Shown piece by piece: positions 29,645 through 42,874 of a DNA stretch of 46,679 nucleotides. Location: assembly GCF_001509585.1 (NCBI RefSeq), contig NZ_LNCI01000020.1, positions 1 through 46,679 of the forward strand, given 5' to 3'. The stretch is from Tropicimonas marinistellae (GTDB lineage Bacteria; Pseudomonadota; Alphaproteobacteria; Rhodobacterales; Rhodobacteraceae). A program made the position numbers and the translations under genes. The notes under the pieces were generated by a model. The model was not told where the DNA came from. It did no database searches and worked only from the letters and a program-made list of their open reading frames with translations. How positions within the stretch are numbered: position 1 is the first letter of the stretch; each line of letters starts with the position of its first letter.

Positions 29645-29818
29645 TCAGCGGTTCCGAGTTCGCCAGATCGCGTAGCCTGAGACCAGAAGGGCCGCAAGCC
29701 CGACCGCAACGGCCTCCATGCCGTGAGGATGCGCGTGGACCTCGGCGAGGGAATGGGCTTCGTGTGCCACGGCTGGTAGCGCCGACAGGGCGAAGGTGAC
29801 AAGGGCAAGGCGCTTCAT
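29645..29818 (-). CDS. 57-residue His-containing secreted/membrane protein, last gene of guanidine operon
   Basis: This protein has a cleavable-looking signal peptide (MKRLALVTFALSALPAVA), then a short periplasmic stretch with five histidines (HEAHSLAEVHAHPHG), one membrane helix (EAVAVGLAALLVSGYAIW) and a basic end RTRNR. It is too short for most gene finders. Its ATG overlaps the stop of the upstream His-rich gene (ATGA), which strongly supports its reality. No family is recognised. Context suggests a role in metal (nickel) handling at the membrane for the guanidine hydrolase; that is inference. Confidence 0.7.
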   Translation of the reverse strand: MKRLALVTFALSALPAVAHEAHSLAEVHAHPHGMEAVAVGLAALLVSGYAIWRTRNR

Positions 29819-30309
29819 ATGGAGAACTCCGTTTTCTTGTTAGCCAGGAAATCCTTTACATCGGTCACGGTCTTCTCGTCCATCGATACATAGACGAAGG
29901 CCATGTTCGTGCGTTCGCTTACCATGCTGCCGGGGTAGGGCAGGTAACTCAGTTCGCGCGATCCGAAGGAGGGTGAGGCGGTGCCGACCTGCCATTCGGT
30001 CGTCAGTTCCACGTCCACCAGCTTCAGGGCCGTCTCGCCGCCGCGGCCAGGTTTTTCGAAGGGCACGCCGGCGAGGCGAAGATAGGCCGCCTTGTCGGCG
30101 GCGTTCACGAAACCGTCGATGAACTGCGTGGCGAGCACCTGGAGGTCGGCCGCTTCGTCGGCGTCGTGCATGTGCGAATGCAGGTGGTCTCCGTGGGCGT
30201 GGTTGTGCCCCGCGCCATGCGGCGCGGGGACTTGGTGGCGTCCGTGAGTGGTGTGGTCGCCGTCAACGTGGTTTTGATGGTGGGGATGGTACGGGTGGTC
30301 ATGTGGCAT
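29815..30309 (-). CDS. Histidine-rich protein, candidate nickel chaperone for the guanidine hydrolase
   Basis: The 164-residue cytoplasmic-looking protein has 17 histidines in its first 49 residues (MPHDHPYHPHHQNH at the start and HNHAHGDHLHSHMHD at the end of the tract). A domain of about 110 residues follows (AADLQVLATQFIDGFVNAADK to FLANKKTEFSI) with no cysteines and no motif I recognise. His tracts like this bind nickel in HypB, UreE and SlyD. It overlaps the enzyme gene by 11 bases and the next gene by 4, so all are co-translated. The ATG at 30309 has AGAGGTGG upstream; an ATG at 30339 is possible. A chaperone or storage role is inferred from composition and position; no GTPase motif is present, so it is not HypB itself. 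Confidence 0.8.
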   Translation of the reverse strand: MPHDHPYHPHHQNHVDGDHTTHGRHQVPAPHGAGHNHAHGDHLHSHMHDADEAADLQVLATQFIDGFVNAADKAAYLRLAGVPFEKPGRGGETALKLVDVELTTEWQVGTASPSFGSRELSYLPYPGSMVSERTNMAFVYVSMDEKTVTDVKDFLANKKTEFSI

Positions 30310-31543
30310 TGGACCACCTCTTGCCTTCGAAGTCGCCATGCGGAATTTCGACTGGCTTGTCGATGTGGGCTTTGTGCTTGCCGAGCGTGCCGTTCGAGAC
30401 CATCGCGCCCAAGACATCGACAATGACCCGCGTCCCCATGAGTGCCGTGATGTCGGAGGTGTCATAGGGCGGGGAGACCTCCACCAGCTCCATGCCGCAG
30501 ATCCCCTCTGCCGCGACCTTGGACGCCAGCGCCAGCGCCTCGCGCGGCAGGAAGCCGCCCGGCTCCGGCCAGCCCGTGCCCGGCACGAAGCCGCAATCGA
30601 TGCTGTCGATATCGAAGGACATGTAGACCATGTCCACCCCGTCCCACGCCATCTCCAGCGCCATCTCGGCCGTCTTGTCGACGCCCATCCGCTCCATGTC
30701 GGACATGGTGATGATGTTGGTCTCCCGCTCTCGGGCGACCTTCACCGCCTCCCGCGGGACCTGCCAGCCGCCAATGCCAACCTGCACGAGGTTCTTGGCC
30801 GGCACATTCGGCAGGTTGGTGGAGTGGAACCACGGCGTGGTGTGCATCCGCTCGTCGAGGTCCTTCTCCTGGATGTCGGCGTGGCGGTCGAAATGGACAA
30901 TGCCGATCTTCTTCGAGGTGCATTCGGCGATGCCGCGCACGCAGGGAAAGCCGATGGAATGGTCGCCGCCGATCATGATCGGCAGGCTGCCGGAGGAGAA
31001 GACGTGGGAAACCGCGCGGCTGATCTGGTCGAAGGACTTCTCGATATTGGCCGGGATGGTGAAGACGTCGCCCGCATCGCAAAGTGTCATCTGCTCCCGC
31101 AAGTCCACCCCGATCTCGTAGTTATAGGGTGTGTAGAGTGCGGAGATCTTGCGCACCCCCTGCGGCCCGAAGCGGGTACCGGGGCGATAAGTGGTGCCGC
31201 CGTCGAAGGGAATGCCGAGCACGGTGGCATCGTAGTTGGCCACTTCCAGCACATCCTCGGCATAGGGCGCCTTGAGGAAGGTGTTGATGCCGGCATAGTG
31301 CGGCAGCTCGCCCCGCGCGAAGGTGGGGATGGACTTGTCCTCGATGCTGTCCGCGCCCGTGAGTCCCATGCGCAGCGCCCACCGGCGCTCTTCGTCCCAG
31401 CGGCCCTCGGGTATTTCGCCTTCGGCCTGCATCGCCTTCCAGCCCTGAAGCTTTGTCAGGTCCGGGTGGTGGAAGCGGCGCGCGTCGTGTCGTGTGAGGC
31501 GTGGGTGATGCGGCCGCGAACGGTCACGCGGGGACTGGAACAT
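30299..31543 (-). CDS. gdmH: Ureohydrolase-family enzyme, probable Ni-dependent guanidine hydrolase
   Basis: The 414-residue member of the arginase/agmatinase family has all the dinuclear metal ligands: GGDHS (His195), HFDRHAD (Asp219, His221, Asp223) and SFDID (Asp311, Asp313). Ordinary agmatinases read GTGTP after the last ligands; this protein reads GTGWPEPGG with Trp325, a change I associate with the guanidine hydrolases described from Synechocystis (Sll1077). The N-terminal extension of about 90 residues is also longer than in agmatinases of about 310 residues. A guanidine-I riboswitch and an importer in the same operon support guanidine as substrate (products urea and ammonia). The ATG at 31543 has GGAGG and overlaps the ATPase gene by 20 bases. 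Confidence 0.85.
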   Translation of the reverse strand: MFQSPRDRSRPHHPRLTRHDARRFHHPDLTKLQGWKAMQAEGEIPEGRWDEERRWALRMGLTGADSIEDKSIPTFARGELPHYAGINTFLKAPYAEDVLEVANYDATVLGIPFDGGTTYRPGTRFGPQGVRKISALYTPYNYEIGVDLREQMTLCDAGDVFTIPANIEKSFDQISRAVSHVFSSGSLPIMIGGDHSIGFPCVRGIAECTSKKIGIVHFDRHADIQEKDLDERMHTTPWFHSTNLPNVPAKNLVQVGIGGWQVPREAVKVARERETNIITMSDMERMGVDKTAEMALEMAWDGVDMVYMSFDIDSIDCGFVPGTGWPEPGGFLPREALALASKVAAEGICGMELVEVSPPYDTSDITALMGTRVIVDVLGAMVSNGTLGKHKAHIDKPVEIPHGDFEGKRWSNAT

Positions 31544-32291
31544 GGGTTTCCTCCGTCAGTCTCTGGAAGGGGATGCCGCCATCGCGGGCATCGAAATCGT
31601 AGGTGATGGTGGCGCCGAAGGCCTCCGGATCGGTCGGGTCCCAGCGGGGCTTGTCGAAGACGAGCACCCGGTCGCCCAGCTTGAAGCCCTCGGTCAGGTC
31701 GTGGGTGACCATGAAGACGGTCATCTTCGTCTCGGCGCGCAATTCCATCAGGAAGTCATGCATCTGAAGGCGCGTGCCCGGGTCGAGCGCGCCGAAGGGC
31801 TCGTCGAGCAGCAGGATGCGCGGCTTGGCTGTGAGCGCCTGGCCGATGGCGAGGCGTTGCTGCATGCCGCCCGAAAGTGTCGAGGGGTATTGATCCGCCA
31901 CGTGGGCGAGGCCGATGCGCTCGAGCACTGTGTCGGCGCGGTCGCGGGCGGCGCGGCGGTCGGCGCCGAAGAAACGGCCAAGCGGTTGGGCGAAGCTCTC
32001 GCCGGCAACGACGTTCTCGCGGATCGTCATGTGCGGGAAGACCGAATATCGCTGGAAGACGACGCCGCGCTCCGGATTCGGCTCGACGGCGGGCGGGTTC
32101 CCGTCGATGGAGATCGTGCCTCGGGTGGGGGTCTCCTGCGCCAGCAGCAGGCGCAGAAAGGTGGACTTGCCGCAACCGGAGGCACCGACAATGGAGATGA
32201 ACTCGCCCTCATCCACCTCGACATTTACTCGTTCGAGGATCGGGCGCTTGCCATAGGACTGGAAGACGTCGCGGACGGAGACGAAGCTCAT
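31524..32291 (-). CDS. ABC transporter ATP-binding protein, NitT/TauT type (probable guanidine import)
   Basis: The 255-residue ATPase has Walker A GASGCGKST, Q-loop VVFQRYSVFPHMTIRENV, signature LSGGMQQRL, Walker B ILLLDEPFGALD and H-loop VTHDLTEG. This set is typical of SsuB/TauB/NrtD-like ATPases. After the core is a family tail of about 45 residues (KPRWDPTDPEAFGATITYDFD). The ATG at 32291 has GGAGG 7 bases upstream; the open frame continues upstream to 32414 without similarity. It lies between permease and enzyme genes in the riboswitch-led operon, so it most likely powers uptake of guanidine. Confidence 0.9.
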   Translation of the reverse strand: MSFVSVRDVFQSYGKRPILERVNVEVDEGEFISIVGASGCGKSTFLRLLLAQETPTRGTISIDGNPPAVEPNPERGVVFQRYSVFPHMTIRENVVAGESFAQPLGRFFGADRRAARDRADTVLERIGLAHVADQYPSTLSGGMQQRLAIGQALTAKPRILLLDEPFGALDPGTRLQMHDFLMELRAETKMTVFMVTHDLTEGFKLGDRVLVFDKPRWDPTDPEAFGATITYDFDARDGGIPFQRLTEETHVPVPA

Positions 32292-32454
32292 TGTGAGACC
32301 TCCGCATTGGGGACCTGCGCTTCGAGACAACGTCCCGACCGGCGTTTCCGCCGGACAGCGCCCGACCCGCTCCCCAGGGCGGGCGCTCTCTGCGTCTCCC
32401 TCCGGGCCGGGCACGGCCCTTCTCGCTCCGAATGGATGTCTGGATTATTGATCA

Positions 32455-33267
32455 TCACAACCCTTCCTCCATCCAGGGGAAGGCGCGCTTGGACAGCTTC
32501 TTCAGCAGGAAGTCGATCACGAAGGCGAGGAAGGTGATCCAGATGACATAGGTCAGGATTACGTCCATCGCGAGGTATCGACGCACGAGGAAGATCCGGT
32601 AGCCGAGCCCGAGATCGGAGGCGATGGCCTCGGCGGCGATTAGGAACAACCAGGCTGGCCCGAGCGAGAGTCGAACCGCCTGGATCAAACGCGGCAGAAC
32701 CTGCGGTAGCGCCACGCGCAGCGCGATCACGAACGAGGAGGCGCCGAGTGTTTCGGCCTTCACGATCTGCTCGCGCGGAATCTCGATGACGCGCTGCGAG
32801 AGGTCGCGGATCAGGAAGGGAGTGATGCCGATGACGATCAGCACGATCTTCGACAGTTCCCCGAGCCCGAAGACGATGAAGAGGATCGGCAACAGCGCCA
32901 GTGGCGGCACCATGGAGATCACGGCAATGAACCCGGCCAGCCCGGCCCGAATATGCGGGAACAGCCCGATCAGAAGCCCGGCGCCCAGACCGATGAATGC
33001 CGAGATGGCGACGCCGATCCCGAGCCTTTGCAGCGAGATCGCGGTGTCGTGCCAGAGCAGGATGCGGCCGGACCTCTTGTCGGGCTCGGAAAATAGGCGC
33101 TGCGCTGTGTCGACGATTGTCGAGGGGGCTGGCAGCAACTTGTCGGCGGGGTTCTCCGCCAGCCGCATCTCGGAGCCGATCATGTAGGCCACGAGCACCA
33201 GCGCGAAGGGTAGCAACGCCAGGAAGGTGGCCAGAACCGGCCCGGGTTTTCGGTTGATGTATCGCAT
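32455..33267 (-). CDS. ABC transporter permease, NitT/TauT type (probable guanidine import)
   Basis: The 270-residue inner-membrane protein has about six helices and the BPD_transp_1 EAA loop in IVKAETLGASSFVIALRVALPQVLPRLIQAVRLSLGPAW, as in SsuC/TauC. It has an N-terminal KPGPVLATFLALLPFALVLVAY helix and a periplasmic segment with NPADKLLPAPSTIVDT. It lies 61 bases after the binding-protein gene, with a strong hairpin between, and 163 bases before the ATPase gene. Substrate is inferred from the operon. Confidence 0.9.
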   Translation of the reverse strand: MRYINRKPGPVLATFLALLPFALVLVAYMIGSEMRLAENPADKLLPAPSTIVDTAQRLFSEPDKRSGRILLWHDTAISLQRLGIGVAISAFIGLGAGLLIGLFPHIRAGLAGFIAVISMVPPLALLPILFIVFGLGELSKIVLIVIGITPFLIRDLSQRVIEIPREQIVKAETLGASSFVIALRVALPQVLPRLIQAVRLSLGPAWLFLIAAEAIASDLGLGYRIFLVRRYLAMDVILTYVIWITFLAFVIDFLLKKLSKRAFPWMEEGL

Positions 33268-33282
33268 ACTGCAATCCAGGCA

Positions 33283-33310
33283 CGCCCCGCCACTGGAGGA
33301 CGGCGGGGCG
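33283..33310 (-). promoter_or_regulatory. Intercistronic hairpin between binding-protein and permease genes
   Basis: CGCCCCGCC (33283-33291) pairs perfectly with GGCGGGGCG (33302-33310) around a 10-base loop. Such structures in ABC operons commonly stabilise the upstream message or cause partial termination, giving more binding protein than permease. No T run follows. Confidence 0.5.
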
Positions 33311-33328
33311 CTTTCCCCGTGGTTGGGG

Positions 33329-34384
33329 TTACAGGCTGCCCTCGGCCGCCATCTTCATGAAGCTCGTGTCGTATCGGAACTTCACATTGTTCTCGTCGCC
33401 AGTCGTGCTGCCGTCCGGATAGGCCACGCCCACGAAGTCGGCCGAAGGCGCGCCTTCGCCGAGAATACCTTTGTCGAACAGGAACTCCGCAACGTTCACC
33501 ATTGTGGCCGGCAATTCCGCGCTTTCGGTGAAGGCAACGGCGTCGGCTGGAGTCCAGAACATCTTCGTCGAGTCGAGCTGCGCCTTGTAGCCGGCAAGAT
33601 CCGTACCCGAGGCTTCGGCCATGGCGCTCAGGGCTTCTTCGTCACCGGCAGCCATGAGATCCATCAACTCGTACCAAGCACCGACCAGGGCCTTGCCGAA
33701 GGCGGGGTTGTCGGCAAGCGTTTCGGTGTTCACCACCATCAGGTCGATAATCTCGCCCGGAATATCGGCGCTGTCGAAGAGCATGTTCGCACCGGGCGTC
33801 TCCAGGATGGAGGAGACCAACGGGTTCCAGGTGACGACGGCTTCGACATCGTCGGTCGCAAAGGCGGCAATCATGTCGGCGTCCGATGTGTTGATCACGC
33901 CGCCAAGGTCCGCCTCCGACAAGCCAACACTGTCGAGCGCGCGCGCGAGCAGGTAGTGGGAGACCGACAGTTCCACGAGGTTGACCGGCTTGCCGGCAAG
34001 GCTCGCTAGGTCGCCATCACCTTTCACGATCACCGCGTCATTGCCATTGGAGTAATCGCCCACGATCAGGGCTGTCGTATCGACACCGCCGCCCGAGGGA
34101 ATGGACAGCGTGTCCATATTGGTGGCCGAAACACCGTCGAAGGCGCCGGCGGTGTATTGATTGATGGATTCCACGTAATCGTTGATCTGAACGATCTCCA
34201 CGTCGATCCCGTACTTCTCGGCCCATTTGTCCATGATGCCGGAGGTCTCCAGGTATCCCCAGGGCATCCAGCCCACATAGATCGACCATGCGACCTTGAA
34301 TTCGGTTTTCTCCTCGGCCATCGCGGCAGGGGCGCTTAGCGCGGCGGCGAGTATGGTTGCGGACAGAATTGTCGACTTCAGCAT
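33329..34384 (-). CDS. Periplasmic substrate-binding protein, NitT/TauT type (probable guanidine binding)
   Basis: The 351-residue protein has a signal peptide ending AAMAEEK (about residue 23) and a mature domain of the NMT1/SsuA-like class: FKVAWSIYVGWMPWGYLETSGIMDKWAEKYG, a hinge region with YTAGAFDGVSATNMDTLSIPSGGGVDTTAL, and FATDDVEAVVTWNPLVS. It would deliver the ligand to the permease. As the first gene after the guanidine-I riboswitch it is the best candidate for a periplasmic guanidine receptor. The ATG at 34384 has AGGGAG upstream. An inverted repeat TTCCGCC/GGCGGAA (34402-34408, 34433-34439) in the leader may be part of the expression platform. Confidence 0.9.
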   Translation of the reverse strand: MLKSTILSATILAAALSAPAAMAEEKTEFKVAWSIYVGWMPWGYLETSGIMDKWAEKYGIDVEIVQINDYVESINQYTAGAFDGVSATNMDTLSIPSGGGVDTTALIVGDYSNGNDAVIVKGDGDLASLAGKPVNLVELSVSHYLLARALDSVGLSEADLGGVINTSDADMIAAFATDDVEAVVTWNPLVSSILETPGANMLFDSADIPGEIIDLMVVNTETLADNPAFGKALVGAWYELMDLMAAGDEEALSAMAEASGTDLAGYKAQLDSTKMFWTPADAVAFTESAELPATMVNVAEFLFDKGILGEGAPSADFVGVAYPDGSTTGDENNVKFRYDTSFMKMAAEGSL

Positions 34385-34468
34385 GTTTCAGCTCCCTGTC
34401 GTTCCGCCGGTGTTTCTGATTGTCGGTGCGCTGGCGGAACAAGGAGGATAGGGCGCGGGCGAACCGAC

Positions 34469-34582
34469 GCAGTACTCTCCCGGGATTTTGGCCCGCCGTG
34501 TACCGCGGGCGAATTTGCCCCCGCGGCGGCACTTCTCGGACCAGTCTCCGGCCTCAGCCGGACGGAACCCTAAGTACCCTGC
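34469..34582 (-). promoter_or_regulatory. Guanidine-I (ykkC) riboswitch
   Basis: Read on the minus strand, the leader of the transporter operon contains the conserved ykkC elements in order: TTAGGGTTCCG, a P1b hairpin TCCGGC-TGAG-GCCGGA (34547-34562), CTGGTCCGAGA (34534-34544), a second hairpin CCGCGGG/CCCGCGG (34503-34526), ACACGG, and CCAAAATCCCGGGAGAG. The closing P1 stem pairs GTACT (34573-34577) with AGTAC (34472-34476), extended by GCA/TGC. It ends 84 bases before the binding-protein ATG. The subtype-1 (guanidine) reading fits the genes below it; related subtypes bind ppGpp or PRPP. Without a terminator in the platform, translational or other control is likely. Confidence 0.9.
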
Positions 34583-35129
34583 GCCTCCAGCACAGCAAGC
34601 CGGCGGGAGTCGAGGCAAGTGCGGCGCATGGCAATCGTCGCCCGGATCGCGGCCTCAGGGGAGCAGCGCCGATTAATTGGGCGACTTGGGGTGAATTTGT
34701 GCGCCTTTGGGTTCCGATTGATGTCGATTCCCGTCCAAGCTGTCCGGTTTGGGAGGCCCGACGCAGCTCCAATCGGGGCGGATCACGCAATGCTTCGGAC
34801 GCCGTACGACGACTGTGCGACCGGCCGTCCACGTGGAAGAGCGACGATTTATAGCACCCAACGGCGAGCGTGACCGGGCGCCCCGCACCGCCCTTCGTAC
34901 CCGGAACGGGCCGTTTTGGGATGCAGGAGGGGAAATCGGGAATTGCCCGAGTTCGAATATTTCCCCAGGCCGCACAATTCGGAGCGATCTTTTCGCCGCC
35001 ATGACGAATCCGCCTGAGGCCATGCAACGCGCGCAATCCCGCCTCCGAATCGAATGTGGGCGCAAACGTGGCATTAAACTCGCGGTTGAAATCGTTTACA
35101 TTACCCTATGCTCAAAATTGGTGGACGAG
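34583..35129. other. Divergent intergenic region between guanidine operon and PFOR-like gene
   Basis: No gene is recognised; open frames here are short and inconsistent. It should contain the promoters of both transcripts. A nested inverted repeat at 34929-34966 has outer arms GGGGAAAT / ATTTCCCC and inner arms CGGG/CCCG. TTGAAA at 35086-35091 with TATGCT at 35107-35112 (15 bases apart) is a weak promoter candidate for the PFOR-like gene. Confidence 0.5.
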
Positions 35130-38100
35130 ATGAAAGACGTCGCTTCCAAGGTCCCGGAATATCCGGGGGTACCTGCCGTCATCCACGGTAACGGTGCCAT
35201 CGCCCAGGTCATGGGACAGGTCTGTGGCGGGGTGATCGGTTACCCGATCACGCCATCGACCGAAATCGCCGAACTCTACGAGGCCTTCCGTGCAAGCGGC
35301 GGCGTCAATATCTGGGGCAGGCACCCGTTCTTCTTCGAGCCAGAAGGCGAGCATTCCGCGCAATCCGGCGCGCTCGGCGCGGCGCTCACGGGCGGGCAGT
35401 ACATCTCGAACGCCTCGTCCAGCCAGGGAATTCTCTACGGCATCGAGTCCCACTACGTGACCGTCGGCAAGAAAGTCGGCGGTTTCGTCATGCAGGTGGC
35501 GGCGCGGTCCGTTTCGCGTCACTCGCTCAACGTGATGGCGGGCCACGATGACGTCTACGCGCTTCTCCCGTCCGGCTACACGATCCTCTTCGGGTCCAAC
35601 CCGCAGGAGGCCGCCGACCTTGCCGCGATCTCCTACAAGGTGAGCGCGATGTCGATGATCCCGGTCGCCAACGCGATGGACGGTTTCGTCACAAGCCACA
35701 TGATGAGCGAAGTCATGATGCCCGAGGATGACCTGCTGACGGCCTTTCTCGGTGATCCTGGCGAGCGGATCAAATGTCCGACCGTTGCGCAGGAAATGCT
35801 CTATGGCGCGAAGGGTCGGGTCTTCCAGCTCAAGCGCTATCTCGGCCGACACAGCTCCGATCTCGCAACCGAGGATTACGTGACGCTGGTCGACTACCTG
35901 GATGCCAATGCCGAAGCGGTCGAAATCGACAATGCGGGCGATCTCGTGGGCGAAACGCTCGCGCATCTGCCCGAAGAGTTGCATGCACAGTGGCGGCGGC
36001 AATGGGTCAACGCTTACGAGAAGGGCACACGGCAGCGCGTACCAGCGCAGGTTGACGTCCATAATCCCGGCCTCACCGGCGGGGTGCAAAACCAGCCCGA
36101 TTTCCAGGCCGGTGCCGTCGACCATCGCACCCACTTCGTGCGCGACGTGCCGCGTTTCGTTCGCGAGGCGATGGCGGAGTATTCCGAGCTTACCGGGCGG
36201 GACTATGCGCCCATCAAGACGTACCAATGCGAGGACGCCGAGACCGTTGTGGTTGGCCTGGGCTCGGTCACCGACGATGCCGAAGCCGTGGCAGCCTATC
36301 TGCGACGGCAGGGACGCAAGGTCGGTGTGATCTCGATCAAGATGCTGCAACCCTTCCCGGAGGCCGACGTGGTCGCGGCTCTGGCCGGCAAGCGAGCGGT
36401 GACGATCCTCGAACGTTCCGATGTGACCGCGCTCACCAGCATGGTCAACCAGGCGCTCCTGAAGGCCGTGGAAAACGCGGACGATCCGCGCTACCCCGAT
36501 ATTCCGGCGCTCACCAAGCTGCCGAAGCTCACCACGGCGATCTTCGGGCTTGGGGCGCATGACCTGCAGCCGCGCCACATGGTTGCGGCGTTCGACAACA
36601 TGGACAAGGGCAACGCGCCGCTCGTCTTCCTCGGCAGCCAGTTCTTCGACAAGAACCCCACCCCGCATGTTGCCGAATTGCAGGAGCGGTTGCGCGCTGC
36701 CTATCCGGAAACCGAGGTCATGGCGCTGGAGACGGGGCCGAACCCGCGGCTGCTGCCTGATGAGGCACTGCGCATCCGGTTCCACTCGGTGGGCGGCTAC
36801 GGCACCATCGCGACCGGCAAGCTGCTGACGGATATCCTCGCCAACGCGCTGAAGCTGCATTCCAAGGCCGCGCCGAAATACGGCTCCGAGAAGAGCGGCG
36901 CGCCGACGAATTACTACATCACCCTCAGCCCGGAGCCGGTGAAGCTGGCCAACGCGGATCTTGAGGATGTGGAAGTTGTGGTTTCGCCAGACCACAAGGT
37001 CTTCGCGCACAGCAATCCCTTGCGGGGCCTGATCGAAGGCGGCACGTTCATCCTCCAGTCGAGCCTCTCCCCGCTCGAGGTCTGGAAGGAAATGCCGGCG
37101 TCGATGCGTGACTACATCGTCTCCCGCAATATCCGCTTCTTCGTTCTGGATGGCTTCGCGATTGCCAAGAAGCACGCGCCGCGCCCGGAACTTGAAACCC
37201 GGATGATGGGGATCGCCTTCATCGGCGCGGTCTGCGGGCATGTGGAACGGATCACCCACGGCGCCGAGGAGGCGGCTGTGCTGGAGATGATCCGCAAGCA
37301 GATTGCCAAGAAATTCGGCGCCAAGGGTCAGGCGATTGTCGACGGCAACATGGCGGTGATCCGCGACGGGCTGAAGGCGGTGGTCGAGATCGACTACGCC
37401 GCGCCGGAATTTGTCGAGGTGACGAAGGCCGACAATCCGGAGATGGAGTTCACGTCCGCGATCTCGGCTTCCATGTGCCGCATCGCGCAGGACGCATCCC
37501 CCAACGGGCTCTTCGACCACGATTATTACGAGGAGACCGTGGCGGCCCCCTTCCGCGAGGGCCGCATCGGCGAGGCGCCGGTCTTGCCCGGCGTGGGCAT
37601 GTTCATGCCCACCGGCACGGCGGCGGCACGCGACAAGGGGCTTTTCCGGCGCGAGGTGCCGGTTCTGGAGCCCGATCTCTGCACCGGCTGTCTGGAATGC
37701 ACGATGGTCTGCCCCGATGCCGCGATACCGGCAACGGTGCTCGACATCGACGGGCTGCTTTCCACCGCGCTTAAGGAGGCCGACATGGCGCCGGCGCAAC
37801 GCGAGGCGGCGAAGGAATTCCTGCGTCCGCTGGGCGACGCCGTCCGGGCCGAGATCAACGCCGGTAAGGAAACCCGCCCATTCGGCGATCTGGTCGCAGA
37901 CGCAGTGGATGCGCTGGATGTCGAGAGCGCCGTCGTGCGGCGCAACCTTGGGCGTATGGCCGAAGCCGCGGCGCGGCTGCCGGTCTCGCGCACACGTCCG
38001 TTCTTCGATGCGATGGAAGCGGAACGTGGCGGCTCCGGCGGGCTATTCTCCGTCGTGGTCGACCCGTGGAAATGCTCGGGTTGCCTGGAATGCATCGACG

Positions 38101-40118
38101 TCTGCGGCCCGGGTGCGCTGTCCGTGGCCGAGCAGGATGGACCGCTGCTGGAAAAACTCCAGAACCAGTTCGAATTCCTGTCGAAAACGCCGAACACACC
38201 CGCACGGTTCATCGAAGATGCCTTCCAGCCGGGCGGCGATATCAAGCGGATGATGCTGGATCGCGATACCTATTACGCCACGACCGGCGGGCACGGCGCC
38301 TGCAGAGGTTGCGGCGAGGTCACGGCAATCCGACAGGTTGTCTCGGCCAGCCATGCCATTCACGACCGCCGCCGCAAACGTCACGTGCGGGAGTTGGAAC
38401 AACTCACCGACGCGCTTCTGGCCAAGCTGCCCGAGGTCGCGGAGGACGCAGCGCGGACGGCGCGTATCCGCAATGCGCTGGACGTGCTGGAGAAGCGGCT
38501 CTTCCTGATGGAAGGCGGCCCGACCGGCAACGGCCCGGCGGCGATGGTAGTGGCCAATGCCACTGGTTGTTCGTCGGTCTATGCCTCGACCTTCCCCTAC
38601 AATCCCTACAACGATCCCTGGGTGAACAGCCTGTTCCAGGACGGCCCGGCACTCAGCAAGGGGATTTTCGAGGGGCTGACGGCAACGGCGGCGGTGGATT
38701 TCAAGGCACTGCGGGTGGCACGCCTGGAGCTTGAGGATGCCTACGATCCGGCCACCGACGACGCCTTCTTCCGAAACTTCGAATGGCAGGCCTTCTCCGG
38801 GGAAGAGCGTGCGCTTCTGCCCACGGTGATCAACATCAGTGGCGACGGCGCGGCATACGACATCGGCTTTGGGGCCTTGTCGAGGCTGCTGGCGAGCACC
38901 ACACCGGTCAAGGTGATGGTGCTGAACTCCGGGGTCTATTCCAACACCGGCGGGCAGGCCTCAACGGCGAGCCTGTCGGGGCAGGACAGTGATCTCAGCC
39001 GCTTCGGTCCGGCCTCTCACGGGAAACAGGAGGATCGCAAGGAGCTCGGCCTAATTGCCGCGTTCCACCCCGACGTCTTCGTGGTGCAGAGCGCCACGGC
39101 CATGCCGGGGCACTTCCTGAAGAACATGATGGCTTATCTGGAGCACGATTCCTCTCCGGCCGTGCTGGATGTCTACACGCCCTGTCAGGCGGAGCACGGC
39201 ATTGCCGATGCCGCCGCGCACCAGCGGGCGAAGCTGGCCGTCGAGGCCCGTGTCAGCCCGGTGTTCGTCCACGATCCCAACGCCGGGGCTTCGCTCGAAG
39301 AACGCTTCTCGCTCGACGGCAACCCGGCGGTCGAAAAGGACTGGGCGACGACGACGCTGGAATATGTCGAGGACGGCGAGTTGAAGCTCATGGGCGTTGC
39401 GCTGACACCGGCGCATTTCGCCTTCGACGAGACTCGCTTCAAGAAGCAGTTCCGCCCACTGGCCGACGGTGCGGTCGGGGTGCCGATTGAGGCATATATT
39501 GACCTGCCGCTGGCAGAGCGGGTGGGCAAGGCGCCCTATGTTCTGGCGACCGACGAAGACAAGCACCTTGTCAAACTGGAAGTCGGGACCACGGTCGTGC
39601 ATCTGGTTGAGGAGCGGCGGAAAGCCTGGCGGACGCTACAGCACCTCGCCGGGCTCGATGTGGAGCAGATCGACGCCGTACACCACGCCGAGGTGGCGGC
39701 CTTGCAGAAGCGGTACGAGGAGGCCGTTGAGGCGCGGGAAACCACGATGGACAGCATCGCGACCGGCATGAGCGCGCTTGCTGCCGCTTCCAGCGCTCCG
39801 TCGGCCGTCGGTCTTGCAGGCGCGCTCGCGCCTGTGGCGGGTGGTGCGCCCGCAGCGGTCGCCGAGGCAACGCCTCCGTCAAGTAACGGGGAAATCCCGC
39901 ATATCCACGAGGAGGACGTTGCGCTCTGTTCCGACTGCAAGACTTGCTACCAGGAGATCCCGGAACTCTTCGAACTGACGAAGATCGTGGTGAACGGGCA
40001 GGCCAAGCAGGTCGCACGGACCATTCCGGGTGCGCTGGACACCGTTGAGATGACGGACGACCTGCGGGCGCGGCTCGCCAAGGTTGCCGCCAATTGTGAC
40101 TCGGAGATCATCCGATGA
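35130..40118 (+). CDS. Giant PFOR-type 2-oxoacid:acceptor oxidoreductase
   Basis: This 1662-residue, thiamine-diphosphate and Fe-S enzyme probably oxidatively decarboxylates a 2-oxoacid to an acyl-CoA. Domain order follows PFOR/NifJ: domain I with GGVIGYPITPSTE (about 33-45), domain II VVVGLGSVTDDAEAVAAYL, gamma domain FHSVGGYGTIATGKLLTDIL, a two-cluster ferredoxin domain (CTGCLECTMVC at 851, CSGCLECIDVC at 982), and the TPP domain with GGHGACRGCGE, ISGDGAAYDIGFG (1238) and LNSGVYSNTGGQ. Unlike the roughly 1200-residue standard enzyme it has insertions and a C-terminal extension: an alanine-rich linker, then CSDCKTCYQEIPELFE (Cys1600, 1603, 1606) and a late cysteine that could hold another cluster. 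The ATG at 35130 has only a weak ribosome site. A 4-base overlap joins it to the flavoprotein gene. Substrate not determinable here; pyruvate is the default. Confidence 0.85.
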   Translation: MKDVASKVPEYPGVPAVIHGNGAIAQVMGQVCGGVIGYPITPSTEIAELYEAFRASGGVNIWGRHPFFFEPEGEHSAQSGALGAALTGGQYISNASSSQGILYGIESHYVTVGKKVGGFVMQVAARSVSRHSLNVMAGHDDVYALLPSGYTILFGSNPQEAADLAAISYKVSAMSMIPVANAMDGFVTSHMMSEVMMPEDDLLTAFLGDPGERIKCPTVAQEMLYGAKGRVFQLKRYLGRHSSDLATEDYVTLVDYLDANAEAVEIDNAGDLVGETLAHLPEELHAQWRRQWVNAYEKGTRQRVPAQVDVHNPGLTGGVQNQPDFQAGAVDHRTHFVRDVPRFVREAMAEYSELTGRDYAPIKTYQCEDAETVVVGLGSVTDDAEAVAAYLRRQGRKVGVISIKMLQPFPEADVVAALAGKRAVTILERSDVTALTSMVNQALLKAVENADDPRYPDIPALTKLPKLTTAIFGLGAHDLQPRHMVAAFDNMDKGNAPLVFLGSQFFDKNPTPHVAELQERLRAAYPETEVMALETGPNPRLLPDEALRIRFHSVGGYGTIATGKLLTDILANALKLHSKAAPKYGSEKSGAPTNYYITLSPEPVKLANADLEDVEVVVSPDHKVFAHSNPLRGLIEGGTFILQSSLSPLEVWKEMPASMRDYIVSRNIRFFVLDGFAIAKKHAPRPELETRMMGIAFIGAVCGHVERITHGAEEAAVLEMIRKQIAKKFGAKGQAIVDGNMAVIRDGLKAVVEIDYAAPEFVEVTKADNPEMEFTSAISASMCRIAQDASPNGLFDHDYYEETVAAPFREGRIGEAPVLPGVGMFMPTGTAAARDKGLFRREVPVLEPDLCTGCLECTMVCPDAAIPATVLDIDGLLSTALKEADMAPAQREAAKEFLRPLGDAVRAEINAGKETRPFGDLVADAVDALDVESAVVRRNLGRMAEAAARLPVSRTRPFFDAMEAERGGSGGLFSVVVDPWKCSGCLECIDVCGPGALSVAEQDGPLLEKLQNQFEFLSKTPNTPARFIEDAFQPGGDIKRMMLDRDTYYATTGGHGACRGCGEVTAIRQVVSASHAIHDRRRKRHVRELEQLTDALLAKLPEVAEDAARTARIRNALDVLEKRLFLMEGGPTGNGPAAMVVANATGCSSVYASTFPYNPYNDPWVNSLFQDGPALSKGIFEGLTATAAVDFKALRVARLELEDAYDPATDDAFFRNFEWQAFSGEERALLPTVINISGDGAAYDIGFGALSRLLASTTPVKVMVLNSGVYSNTGGQASTASLSGQDSDLSRFGPASHGKQEDRKELGLIAAFHPDVFVVQSATAMPGHFLKNMMAYLEHDSSPAVLDVYTPCQAEHGIADAAAHQRAKLAVEARVSPVFVHDPNAGASLEERFSLDGNPAVEKDWATTTLEYVEDGELKLMGVALTPAHFAFDETRFKKQFRPLADGAVGVPIEAYIDLPLAERVGKAPYVLATDEDKHLVKLEVGTTVVHLVEERRKAWRTLQHLAGLDVEQIDAVHHAEVAALQKRYEEAVEARETTMDSIATGMSALAAASSAPSAVGLAGALAPVAGGAPAAVAEATPPSSNGEIPHIHEEDVALCSDCKTCYQEIPELFELTKIVVNGQAKQVARTIPGALDTVEMTDDLRARLAKVAANCDSEIIR

Positions 40119-42874
40119 ATGTCGATGTCGCCCAGAGTCAGGACGAGGTGCTGGAACAGCAGCTCGACGTCCTGCGAAAGCACCTGATCGCGGATCCGCG
40201 CAGTCTTCGCGACATCTTCGTCGCCGACGGCACGCAGGCCATGGCTTGGGAGTTCCGGCAAGAGGAGATCGGCGAGAAGTTCATCGGCGTGTTGTGGAAC
40301 CTGCTCCTGAAGGAAGACGACATGAGCATGGTCCTGCAGCGTTTCCTGTGGGACCTGCCGCTCAAGTACAAGCGCAAGTTCATCCGGGCGCTCGACCGTC
40401 ATCTGTCCGGACGCTACCCGATGTTCGCGGGGCTTTCCGACGGATGGCCCGCGGAAAACTACATCCCGCCGTATGTTCGGCCACCGGAGGATCGCAGCCA
40501 TGACTTCGAGCTAGTGAACACCGGCTACCTCGGGTATCGCGCGCTTGGGTACAGCCTGCGCGAGGTGGACCTCTTCGTCTGGCTCGAAGCCATGCGCGAC
40601 AAGCAATGCGAGGACCGGCCCTGTGAATTGGGCGTTCTCAAGGAGCGCATTCGCAAGAAGGAGGCTGAAAAGGTCGGCGGGTGCCCGGTTAAGATCCACA
40701 TTCCCGAAATGCTGGACCTGATCGGCAATGGCAAGATCCGGCAAGCTCTGGAACTGATCGAGAGTTGCAACCCGCTGCCAAACGTCACGGGCCGGGTATG
40801 CCCACAGGAAAACCAGTGCCAAGGCGTGTGCAAGCACACCAAACGGCCGATCGAGATCGGGCAACTGGAGTGGTACCTTCCGGAGCATGAGAAGCTCGCC
40901 GATCCCGACAGGCTCAAGCGGTTCGCAGGCATCGTCAGCCCGTGGGAGCGGGCGGAGAAGCCGCCCATTGCCGTGGTGGGCTCTGGCCCGTCGGGGCTCA
41001 TCAACGCCTATCTTCTGGCGGTCGAAGGCTTTCCTGTGACGGTCTTCGAGGCGTTCCATGAGCTTGGCGGCGTGTTGCGCTATGGCATTCCGGAGTTCCG
41101 CCTGCCCAACAGTCTGATCGACGACGTGGTGACCAAGATCGACTTGCTCGGCGGCAAGTTCGTGAAGAACTTCGTGGTTGGCAAGTCGGCCACGCTGGAT
41201 GACCTCAAGGCGGCTGGATTTTGGAAGATCTTCGTCGGCTCCGGCGCGGGTTTGCCGACCTTCATGAACGTGCCGGGCGAGCACCTGAACGGGGTGATGT
41301 CGGCCAACGAGTTCCTGACCCGCGTGAACCTCATGCGCGGGCGCAACCCGGAATTCGAAACGCCTCTGCCGGATGTCGAGGGCAAGAGCGTGCTGATCAT
41401 CGGCGGCGGCAACACCGCGATGGATGCCGCGCGTACGGCGAAGCGGTTGGGAGGCAACGTCACGATTGTCTATCGGCGCACCAAGGCCGAGATGCCGGCG
41501 CGGGTGGAAGAACTGCATCACGCGCTGGAGGAAGGCATCGAGGTGGCCGAACTGCGCGGCCCGCGCGAGTTCGTGGGCGACAGCCACAGCCATTTCGTGA
41601 CCCATGCCATCGTGGATATCAACGAGCTGGGCGAGCCGGATGCTTCCGGGCGCCGGCGCCCACAGCCCACCGGCGAGACCATCGAAATGCCGGCCGATCT
41701 GGTGATCATGGCGCTTGGCAACAAGTCCAACCCGATCATCCCGGAGGCGGAGCCGGACCTTAAGCTCAGCAAGTGGGGGACCATCGAGGTTGAGCAGGGG
41801 CAGGAGACATCTATCCCGGATGTCTACACCGGCGGCGACGCGGCCCGTGGCGGCTCTACGGCGATCCTTGCCGCGGGCGACGGGCAGGCGGCGGCGCGGC
41901 AGATCGTCGGCGACATCCCCTTCGGCGCGGACGAGATCCGCGACATGGTCGCCCGCGCGGCTCGCTACACCGACAAGGGACAGGCGCGGCAGGAGATCCT
42001 GAAGCACTCGCAACTGACCGCTGGAATTGTCGAGTTGACCATCCGAGCGCCCGTCGTGGCAAAGGCGGCACGCGCCGGGCAGTTTGTCCGGGTGCTTGCA
42101 AGTGACGACGGCGAGCTGATCCCGCTGACGCTGGCGGATTGGGATGCCGATGCCGGAACCATCGACCTGGTGATCCAGGGTATGGGCACGTCCACGAAGC
42201 TGATGAACGAGATGCACGTGGGCGACGCTTTCGCCGGTATCGCCGGGCCCCTCGGTCGACCAAGTGACGTGCATGCCTACGGTGCGGACGAGACGGTCGT
42301 TCTCACGGCCGGTGGCGTCGGCCTGCCGGCGATCCTGCCGATTGCCAAGGCGCATCTGGAGATGGGCAACCACGCAACGATGATCATCGGCTTCCGCTCC
42401 GCGGAGCATCTGTTCTGGACGGGTGAAGACGACCGGATGGGGCAGCTCAAGGCGACATACGGCGATCAGCTCGATGTGATCTACTGCTCCAACGACGGCA
42501 CCTTCGGCATGAAGGGCTTTGTCACCACGCCATTGGAAGCGATGCTGAAGGACGGCAAACGCTCCAAGGGCCGCAAGCTCGCCGAGGTCATCTCCGTTGG
42601 TCCGCCGATGATGATGCGCGCGGTCAGCGATCTGACCAAACCCTATGGCGTGCCGACCGTGGTCAGCCTCAACTCCATCATGGTGGATGCAACAGGTATG
42701 TGCGGCGCCTGCATGGTGCCGGTGATCGAAGGTGACAGGAACGTGCGGAAACACGCATGTATCGACGGCCCGGAGTTCGACGCCCATACAGTTGAATGGG
42801 ACAAGTTCATGCCGCGCTTTGCGCAGTTCAAGGCGCAGGAGGTCCGGAGCCTGGAACGCCACGGTCTTGCCTGA
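40115..42874 (+). CDS. Multidomain flavoprotein: GltD/NfnB-like fused to NfnA/PyrK-like module
   Basis: The 919-residue product is coupled by an ATGA overlap to the PFOR-like gene. Residues 1 to about 170 form a domain I do not recognise, rich in helices and aromatic residues. A Fer4_20-type cysteine region follows (NPLPNVTGRVCPQENQCQGVC), then a GltD/NfnB-like part with FAD motif VVGSGPSG (about 287-294) and NAD(P) motif IIGGGNTAMDAARTAK. After about 640 comes an FNR/PyrK-like module with GQFVRVLA, TAGGVGLPAILPIAK and a [2Fe-2S]-type MCGACMV (Cys863, 866) with a later HACIDGPEFD. NfnA and NfnB are normally separate subunits of ferredoxin:NADP+ transhydrogenases; here they are one chain. It probably passes electrons from the PFOR-like enzyme to NAD(P)+. 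Confidence 0.85.
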   Translation: MNVDVAQSQDEVLEQQLDVLRKHLIADPRSLRDIFVADGTQAMAWEFRQEEIGEKFIGVLWNLLLKEDDMSMVLQRFLWDLPLKYKRKFIRALDRHLSGRYPMFAGLSDGWPAENYIPPYVRPPEDRSHDFELVNTGYLGYRALGYSLREVDLFVWLEAMRDKQCEDRPCELGVLKERIRKKEAEKVGGCPVKIHIPEMLDLIGNGKIRQALELIESCNPLPNVTGRVCPQENQCQGVCKHTKRPIEIGQLEWYLPEHEKLADPDRLKRFAGIVSPWERAEKPPIAVVGSGPSGLINAYLLAVEGFPVTVFEAFHELGGVLRYGIPEFRLPNSLIDDVVTKIDLLGGKFVKNFVVGKSATLDDLKAAGFWKIFVGSGAGLPTFMNVPGEHLNGVMSANEFLTRVNLMRGRNPEFETPLPDVEGKSVLIIGGGNTAMDAARTAKRLGGNVTIVYRRTKAEMPARVEELHHALEEGIEVAELRGPREFVGDSHSHFVTHAIVDINELGEPDASGRRRPQPTGETIEMPADLVIMALGNKSNPIIPEAEPDLKLSKWGTIEVEQGQETSIPDVYTGGDAARGGSTAILAAGDGQAAARQIVGDIPFGADEIRDMVARAARYTDKGQARQEILKHSQLTAGIVELTIRAPVVAKAARAGQFVRVLASDDGELIPLTLADWDADAGTIDLVIQGMGTSTKLMNEMHVGDAFAGIAGPLGRPSDVHAYGADETVVLTAGGVGLPAILPIAKAHLEMGNHATMIIGFRSAEHLFWTGEDDRMGQLKATYGDQLDVIYCSNDGTFGMKGFVTTPLEAMLKDGKRSKGRKLAEVISVGPPMMMRAVSDLTKPYGVPTVVSLNSIMVDATGMCGACMVPVIEGDRNVRKHACIDGPEFDAHTVEWDKFMPRFAQFKAQEVRSLERHGLA

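Follow-up and report, generated by a model that had tools for sequence, protein, structure and literature searches.

Positions 29,645 to 34,584 of contig NZ_LNCI01000020.1 of Tropicimonas marinistellae (assembly GCF_001509585.1), analyzed here as a stretch of 46,679 nucleotides that we refer to as the window, hold on the minus strand a guanidine-I riboswitch followed by the genes of an ATP-binding cassette (ABC) transporter, a GdmH-type guanidine hydrolase, a protein with a histidine-rich tail, here called HisR, and a small, apparently exported membrane protein. An earlier note on this DNA had the gene list and coordinates right but made little of the two genes downstream of the enzyme, in which the operon is unusual. 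HisR accompanies one clade of GdmH, and its best reading is that of a nickel-delivery partner of the alphaproteobacterial GdmH, a metal function that we infer from the observations set out below.

In the direction of transcription, the riboswitch aptamer (34475 to 34584) comes first. The covariance model RF00442 matches it over positions 1 to 107 of 107 with 89.6 bits (gathering score, 63; E = 6.6e-15), which bears out the guanidine-I class assigned in the earlier note. A leader hairpin, GTTCCGCC...GGCGGAAC (34401 to 34440), recognized from sequence and fold, lies in the interval before the first gene. Then follow the genes of the substrate-binding protein, probably for guanidine (33329 to 34384; TIGR03427, 525 bits with a cut-off of 333.9), as expected of the guanidine importer that had been proposed, the permease (32455 to 33267; PF00528, 70 bits with a cut-off of 26.4), the ATPase (31524 to 32291; PF00005, 120.8 bits), the GdmH-type enzyme of the ureohydrolase superfamily (30299 to 31543; PF00491, 256.9 bits), HisR (29815 to 30309, 164 amino acids), and the small protein (29645 to 29818, 57 amino acids). 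The overlaps said to tie the last four genes together are exact, 20 nucleotides between ATPase and enzyme, 11 between enzyme and HisR, and 4 (ATGA) between HisR and the small gene by their coordinates, against gaps of 61 nucleotides between binding protein and permease and 163 between permease and ATPase.

This arrangement is not due to chance, since the first five genes keep an identical order in 76 of the 80 closest GdmH loci. These are the best 80 of at least 567 GdmH relatives and thus represent the close end only, mostly Rhodobacterales. The four exceptions are L071 and L089, which end at a contig edge, L118, in which the binding-protein gene is missing, and L132, which consists of the enzyme and HisR genes only. 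In L118 (5047 to 8867) the riboswitch precedes the permease, followed by the ATPase, GdmH, HisR, and the small gene; no match to a binding protein was found there, and its importer may use a different one.

The enzyme belongs with guanidine hydrolases rather than agmatinases, as had been proposed. Compared with the sequences in the PDB, it scores 550 bits with the Synechocystis guanidinase (7esr/7oi1) and 539 with that of Nitrospira inopinata (9fek), while the next match, a proclavaminate amidinohydrolase, reaches only 175; the agmatinase model TIGR01230 gives 169.1 bits, below its cut-off of 174.3. In a tree of 23 rows, it shares a clade (support, 98/97) with the two guanidinases of known structure and a single actinobacterial sequence; two other ureohydrolases of the same genome could not be placed in this tree (branches of 8 and 9), and a third was left out. 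Residues H195, D219, H221, D223, D311, and D313, which we take to be the di-metal ligands of ureohydrolases, are invariant in an alignment of seven sequences. Guanidine specificity has been linked to a set of residues that includes T97 and W305 of the Synechocystis enzyme (excerpts of PMC11410670). T118, H234, W325, and E355 of the window enzyme match this set, with T118 and W325 as the counterparts of T97 and W305, and are invariant across the seven aligned relatives; the residue numbering is shifted by 2 from the chain index, an offset deduced from the alignment. Judged by these features, the window enzyme likely hydrolyzes guanidine, and it would require nickel for this.

Other members of the superfamily hydrolyze other guanidino compounds, and the enzyme, and with it the operon, could in principle serve mainly a substrate such as methylguanidine or agmatine. 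We regard this as very improbable, given that the specificity residues are kept, that the motif PGTGWPEPGG occurs in 89 of the 93 GdmH-like loci scanned, that the agmatinase models stay below their cut-off, and that a guanidine-I riboswitch precedes the genes. A more distant GdmH-like enzyme with a possibly different substrate was seen in genome G087 (L059, 9028 to 10428); it is ca. 55% identical, has Thr at the site of the specificity Trp, and carries an inserted loop with HHDHSHMHD near its HTTPW motif.

The riboswitch is the only RF00442 element found in the 5.4-Mb genome. With a model built in this analysis, the element was complete in 77 of the 80 closest loci and partial in one; the two misses were L089, at a contig edge, and L132, which has none despite room upstream. 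With the Rfam model, 11 of 15 genomes carrying both HisR and GdmH (that of the window and 10 of 14 others from the genus and class samples described below) exceeded the gathering score. The ligand would be guanidine rather than guanosine tetraphosphate (ppGpp) or phosphoribosyl pyrophosphate (PRPP), and the content of the operon fits guanidine. No terminator with a T run was found at the leader hairpin, so that GTTCCGCC/GGCGGAAC is a possible expression platform without a terminator. Elements resembling GTTCCGCC were seen in many of the 12 relatives that were folded.

HisR combines a histidine-rich N-terminal tail with a conserved domain. It was read from an MPHD start, the longest open reading frame (ORF) in this frame beginning at 30465; among the relatives, MPHD was counted in 78 of 79, a figure that is partly circular because the starts were set by a search for the motif M-x-H-D/E. 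No NCBIfam or Pfam model matched HisR, nor did the 72 members of the domain family match any Pfam family, and neither a HypA domain nor a GTPase domain was seen with the Pfam and NCBIfam models. The domain is predicted with high confidence (predicted local distance difference test [pLDDT], 92.0), and its comparison with the PDB gave no clear match to a solved fold. The tails in the closest loci hold 5 to 28 histidines (median, 16). Histidine-rich stretches are found in nickel proteins such as HypB and UreE.

The partnership of HisR with GdmH was surveyed at four levels. In the genus, HisR occurred in five of nine genomes and GdmH in the same five, the other four having neither. The class sample (n = 385) gave 13 genomes with HisR and 13 with GdmH-like matches, 11 of them in common; these 11 GdmHs were the ones at least 73% identical, and in all of them HisR lay directly downstream. 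The GdmH-like matches without HisR came from G072, which is truncated at a contig end, and from G087; they are 52 and 55% identical, respectively, and that of G087 is without the specificity Trp. In the phylum sample (n = 398), GdmH was found in seven genomes, and its coordinates adjoin those of HisR in all seven; both samples include the positives G000 and G115 and are hence not independent. Among the 80 closest loci, HisR followed GdmH in 79, and the single miss was at a contig edge.

Three HisR matches from these samples were set aside. That of G133, HisR only, is a fragment with an internal stop, read as a remnant or an assembly join. The same reading was given to G373 (L055, 12018 to 13034), in which HisR comes after the riboswitch and the start of the binding protein, while the genes of the permease, ATPase, and enzyme are absent. 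In the phylum sample, a match in G602 over 34 positions (E = 2e-4) was treated as chance.

The HisR-bearing GdmHs form one clade in the tree (98/96), as would be expected if HisR had been gained once, at the base of the clade. In L132 and L159, HisR stays by the enzyme although the three ABC genes lie elsewhere or are absent from the locus, which favors a partner of the enzyme over a part of the transporter. This bears on an alternative that assigns HisR and the small protein to import, where they would regulate the ABC transporter or be metal-dependent components of it. Both genes do share the operon with the transporter, and the small protein looks exported, but HisR starts with MPHD without an apparent signal peptide, and we would be surprised if this alternative were correct.

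HypA and HypB, the type of nickel chaperone used in the cyanobacterial system, were not seen in these loci. No HypA/HypB-like gene was seen in the window operon with NCBIfam and Pfam models, and BLAST with the HypA and HypB of the window genome found no homologue in the 80 closest loci, with a reach of up to 7 kb on each side. At the genome level, HypA above the cut-off was missing in 8 of the 15 genomes with HisR and GdmH and in three of five more (11 of 20), counting partial matches in G132 and G006 as present, and HypB was missing in 9 of the 15. Both were missing in eight (G002, G104, G115, G134, G205, which is a single contig, G298, G324, and G343). If GdmH needs loading in those eight species, something other than HypA/HypB must do it, for which HisR is the obvious candidate. 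For the cyanobacterial guanidinase, a requirement for accessory nickel proteins has been reported (excerpts of PMC12186494); they are named as GhaAB in excerpts of PMC11271267.

The main rival explanation is that HisR acts as a nickel store or buffer, or as a subunit stabilizing GdmH, and that accessory proteins of urease or hydrogenase do the loading. Urease alpha was above the cut-off in all 15 genomes with HisR and GdmH, and each of them also has HypB-family matches below the HypB cut-off that may be UreG; G104 has such a match together with urease on the contig of the operon. Urease alpha is, however, equally present in four species of the same genus without the operon, so that it is no special partner and leaves the tie between HisR and GdmH unexplained; a plain store, moreover, need not track one enzyme clade. 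We consider this explanation rather unlikely, although it gains from two facts listed next, the few histidines in three tails and the GdmHs that work elsewhere without a HisR-like neighbor.

Several observations weigh against the favored reading, a guanidine-switched operon with HisR as a nickel loader. The tails of L052, L053, and L054 are short, with 4, 3, and 1 histidines, and the domain itself has no invariant His or Cys. The window genome carries two hypA-hypB pairs (G000:C34:406164-407287 and G000:C12:474245-475325) in two gene clusters, presumably for hydrogenase maturation. The riboswitch was not above the Rfam score in 4 of the 15 genomes (L048, L049, and L056 have none, and the sequence of L052, cut by the contig end, starts 54 bases before the first gene). 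Four actinobacterial plasmid records, from Rubrobacter, Nonomuraea, and Embleya, have GdmH-like enzymes, that of Embleya without the specificity Trp, and show no match to HisR or HypA/HypB within 6 kb. In the literature, Sll1077 alone was reported functional in Synechococcus 7942 (excerpts of PMC8390497); the related chaperones MetAB made no significant difference to metformin hydrolase in cell extracts, although a knockout failed to grow (excerpts of PMC11271267); and comammox genomes were described as lacking such chaperones, with the nickel loading of their enzyme called unclear (excerpts of PMC11410670). Given the actinobacterial plasmids and comammox, a dedicated loader is not universal among GdmH-like enzymes. 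The Rubrobacter indicoceani plasmid (L151, 5986 to 12714) is an alternative layout for guanidine use, with a GdmH-like gene beside genes for a sodium:solute symporter, formamidase, and urease and with no match to HisR or HypA/HypB.

The last gene of the operon is an optional companion, since no small ORF of this kind was seen behind HisR in roughly 30 of 79 loci. In 50 of the 79, an ORF begins within the end of HisR, with an overlap of 4 nucleotides; six of these ORFs do not look secreted, and the remaining 44 are short with a hydrophobic start and, in all 44, a His directly after an A-x-A-like motif, often followed by HxHPHG or similar. The ORFs were sorted by eye and the count rests on a pattern that does not require the His; an earlier pattern that did gave 45 of 79, and three further small ORFs lie at +3 or +4. 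The window copy, predicted to be membrane anchored, has the His after the A-x-A-like motif and an HPHG motif, and matches DUF6732 only marginally (28.3 bits with a cut-off of 27), a cut-off that none of seven chosen relatives reaches; a literature search for DUF6732/PF20506 found no papers. If cut at the A-x-A-like motif, the exported part would begin with His, which could be a metal site; N-terminal His metal sites occur in copper proteins.

Taken together, we consider it fairly probable that this is a guanidine-switched operon for import and hydrolysis in which HisR helps load nickel into GdmH. Guanidine would bind the aptamer, leading to expression of the operon, and the ABC transporter would import it. 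The nickel enzyme GdmH would then convert guanidine to ammonium and urea. The overlap between the GdmH stop and the HisR start would have both proteins made together; the histidine-rich tail of HisR would bind nickel while its conserved domain docks on GdmH and helps metal loading, a task that falls to the HypA/HypB-like GhaA/GhaB in cyanobacteria. The small protein may present a cluster of metal-binding histidines on the outer side of the inner membrane. More tentatively, and with confidence somewhat short of even, HisR may found a family of nickel metallochaperones, perhaps with an unsolved fold, that is dedicated to the alphaproteobacterial GdmH in place of HypA/HypB and forms a two-step nickel relay with the exported-His mini membrane protein.

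The operon is not the self-contained unit that the earlier note supposed, since this type of enzyme yields urea and urease, which would split it, is encoded on a separate contig (G000:C23:338411-340105). Because HisR is tied to one clade of GdmH and occurs in genomes that lack HypA/HypB, the question of GdmH nickel loading becomes testable, and many marine Rhodobacterales, as well as rhizobia such as Sinorhizobium fredii, are likely users of guanidine nitrogen. Elsewhere in the window (35052 to 42874), a very long pyruvate:ferredoxin oxidoreductase (1,688 amino acids as read) is followed by a pyridine-nucleotide oxidoreductase of 919 amino acids with iron-sulfur domains.

The type of operon is known; the combination of riboswitch, ABC genes, and GdmH has been published for Synechocystis and, from bioinformatic work, for a wide set of microbes in which hypA and hypB are often present as well (excerpts of PMC8390497 and PMC12186494). 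The variant with HisR and the small gene is the part that we did not find in print; no His-rich partner of GdmH was found in the literature searched, which did not extend to the supplements of the primary GdmH papers, where the HisR gene may be listed. The Synechocystis operon sll1077-sll1082 shares the guanidine-I riboswitch, the ABC importer, and GdmH with that of the window (excerpts of PMC8390497 and PMC12186494). It differs in having the HypA/HypB-like GhaA/GhaB where the window operon has HisR and the small exported protein, and in its gene order, which in the window runs from transporter to enzyme. The comammox operon of Nitrospira inopinata likewise shares the riboswitch and the GdmH-type enzyme, with an APC permease and no nickel chaperone in the published description (excerpts of PMC11410670), in contrast to the ABC importer and HisR of the window. 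Finally, HisR resembles HypA/HypB, GhaA/GhaB, and MetA/MetB in combining a histidine-rich segment with a conserved domain and in the position of its gene by a nickel ureohydrolase, a likeness in the way of working only.

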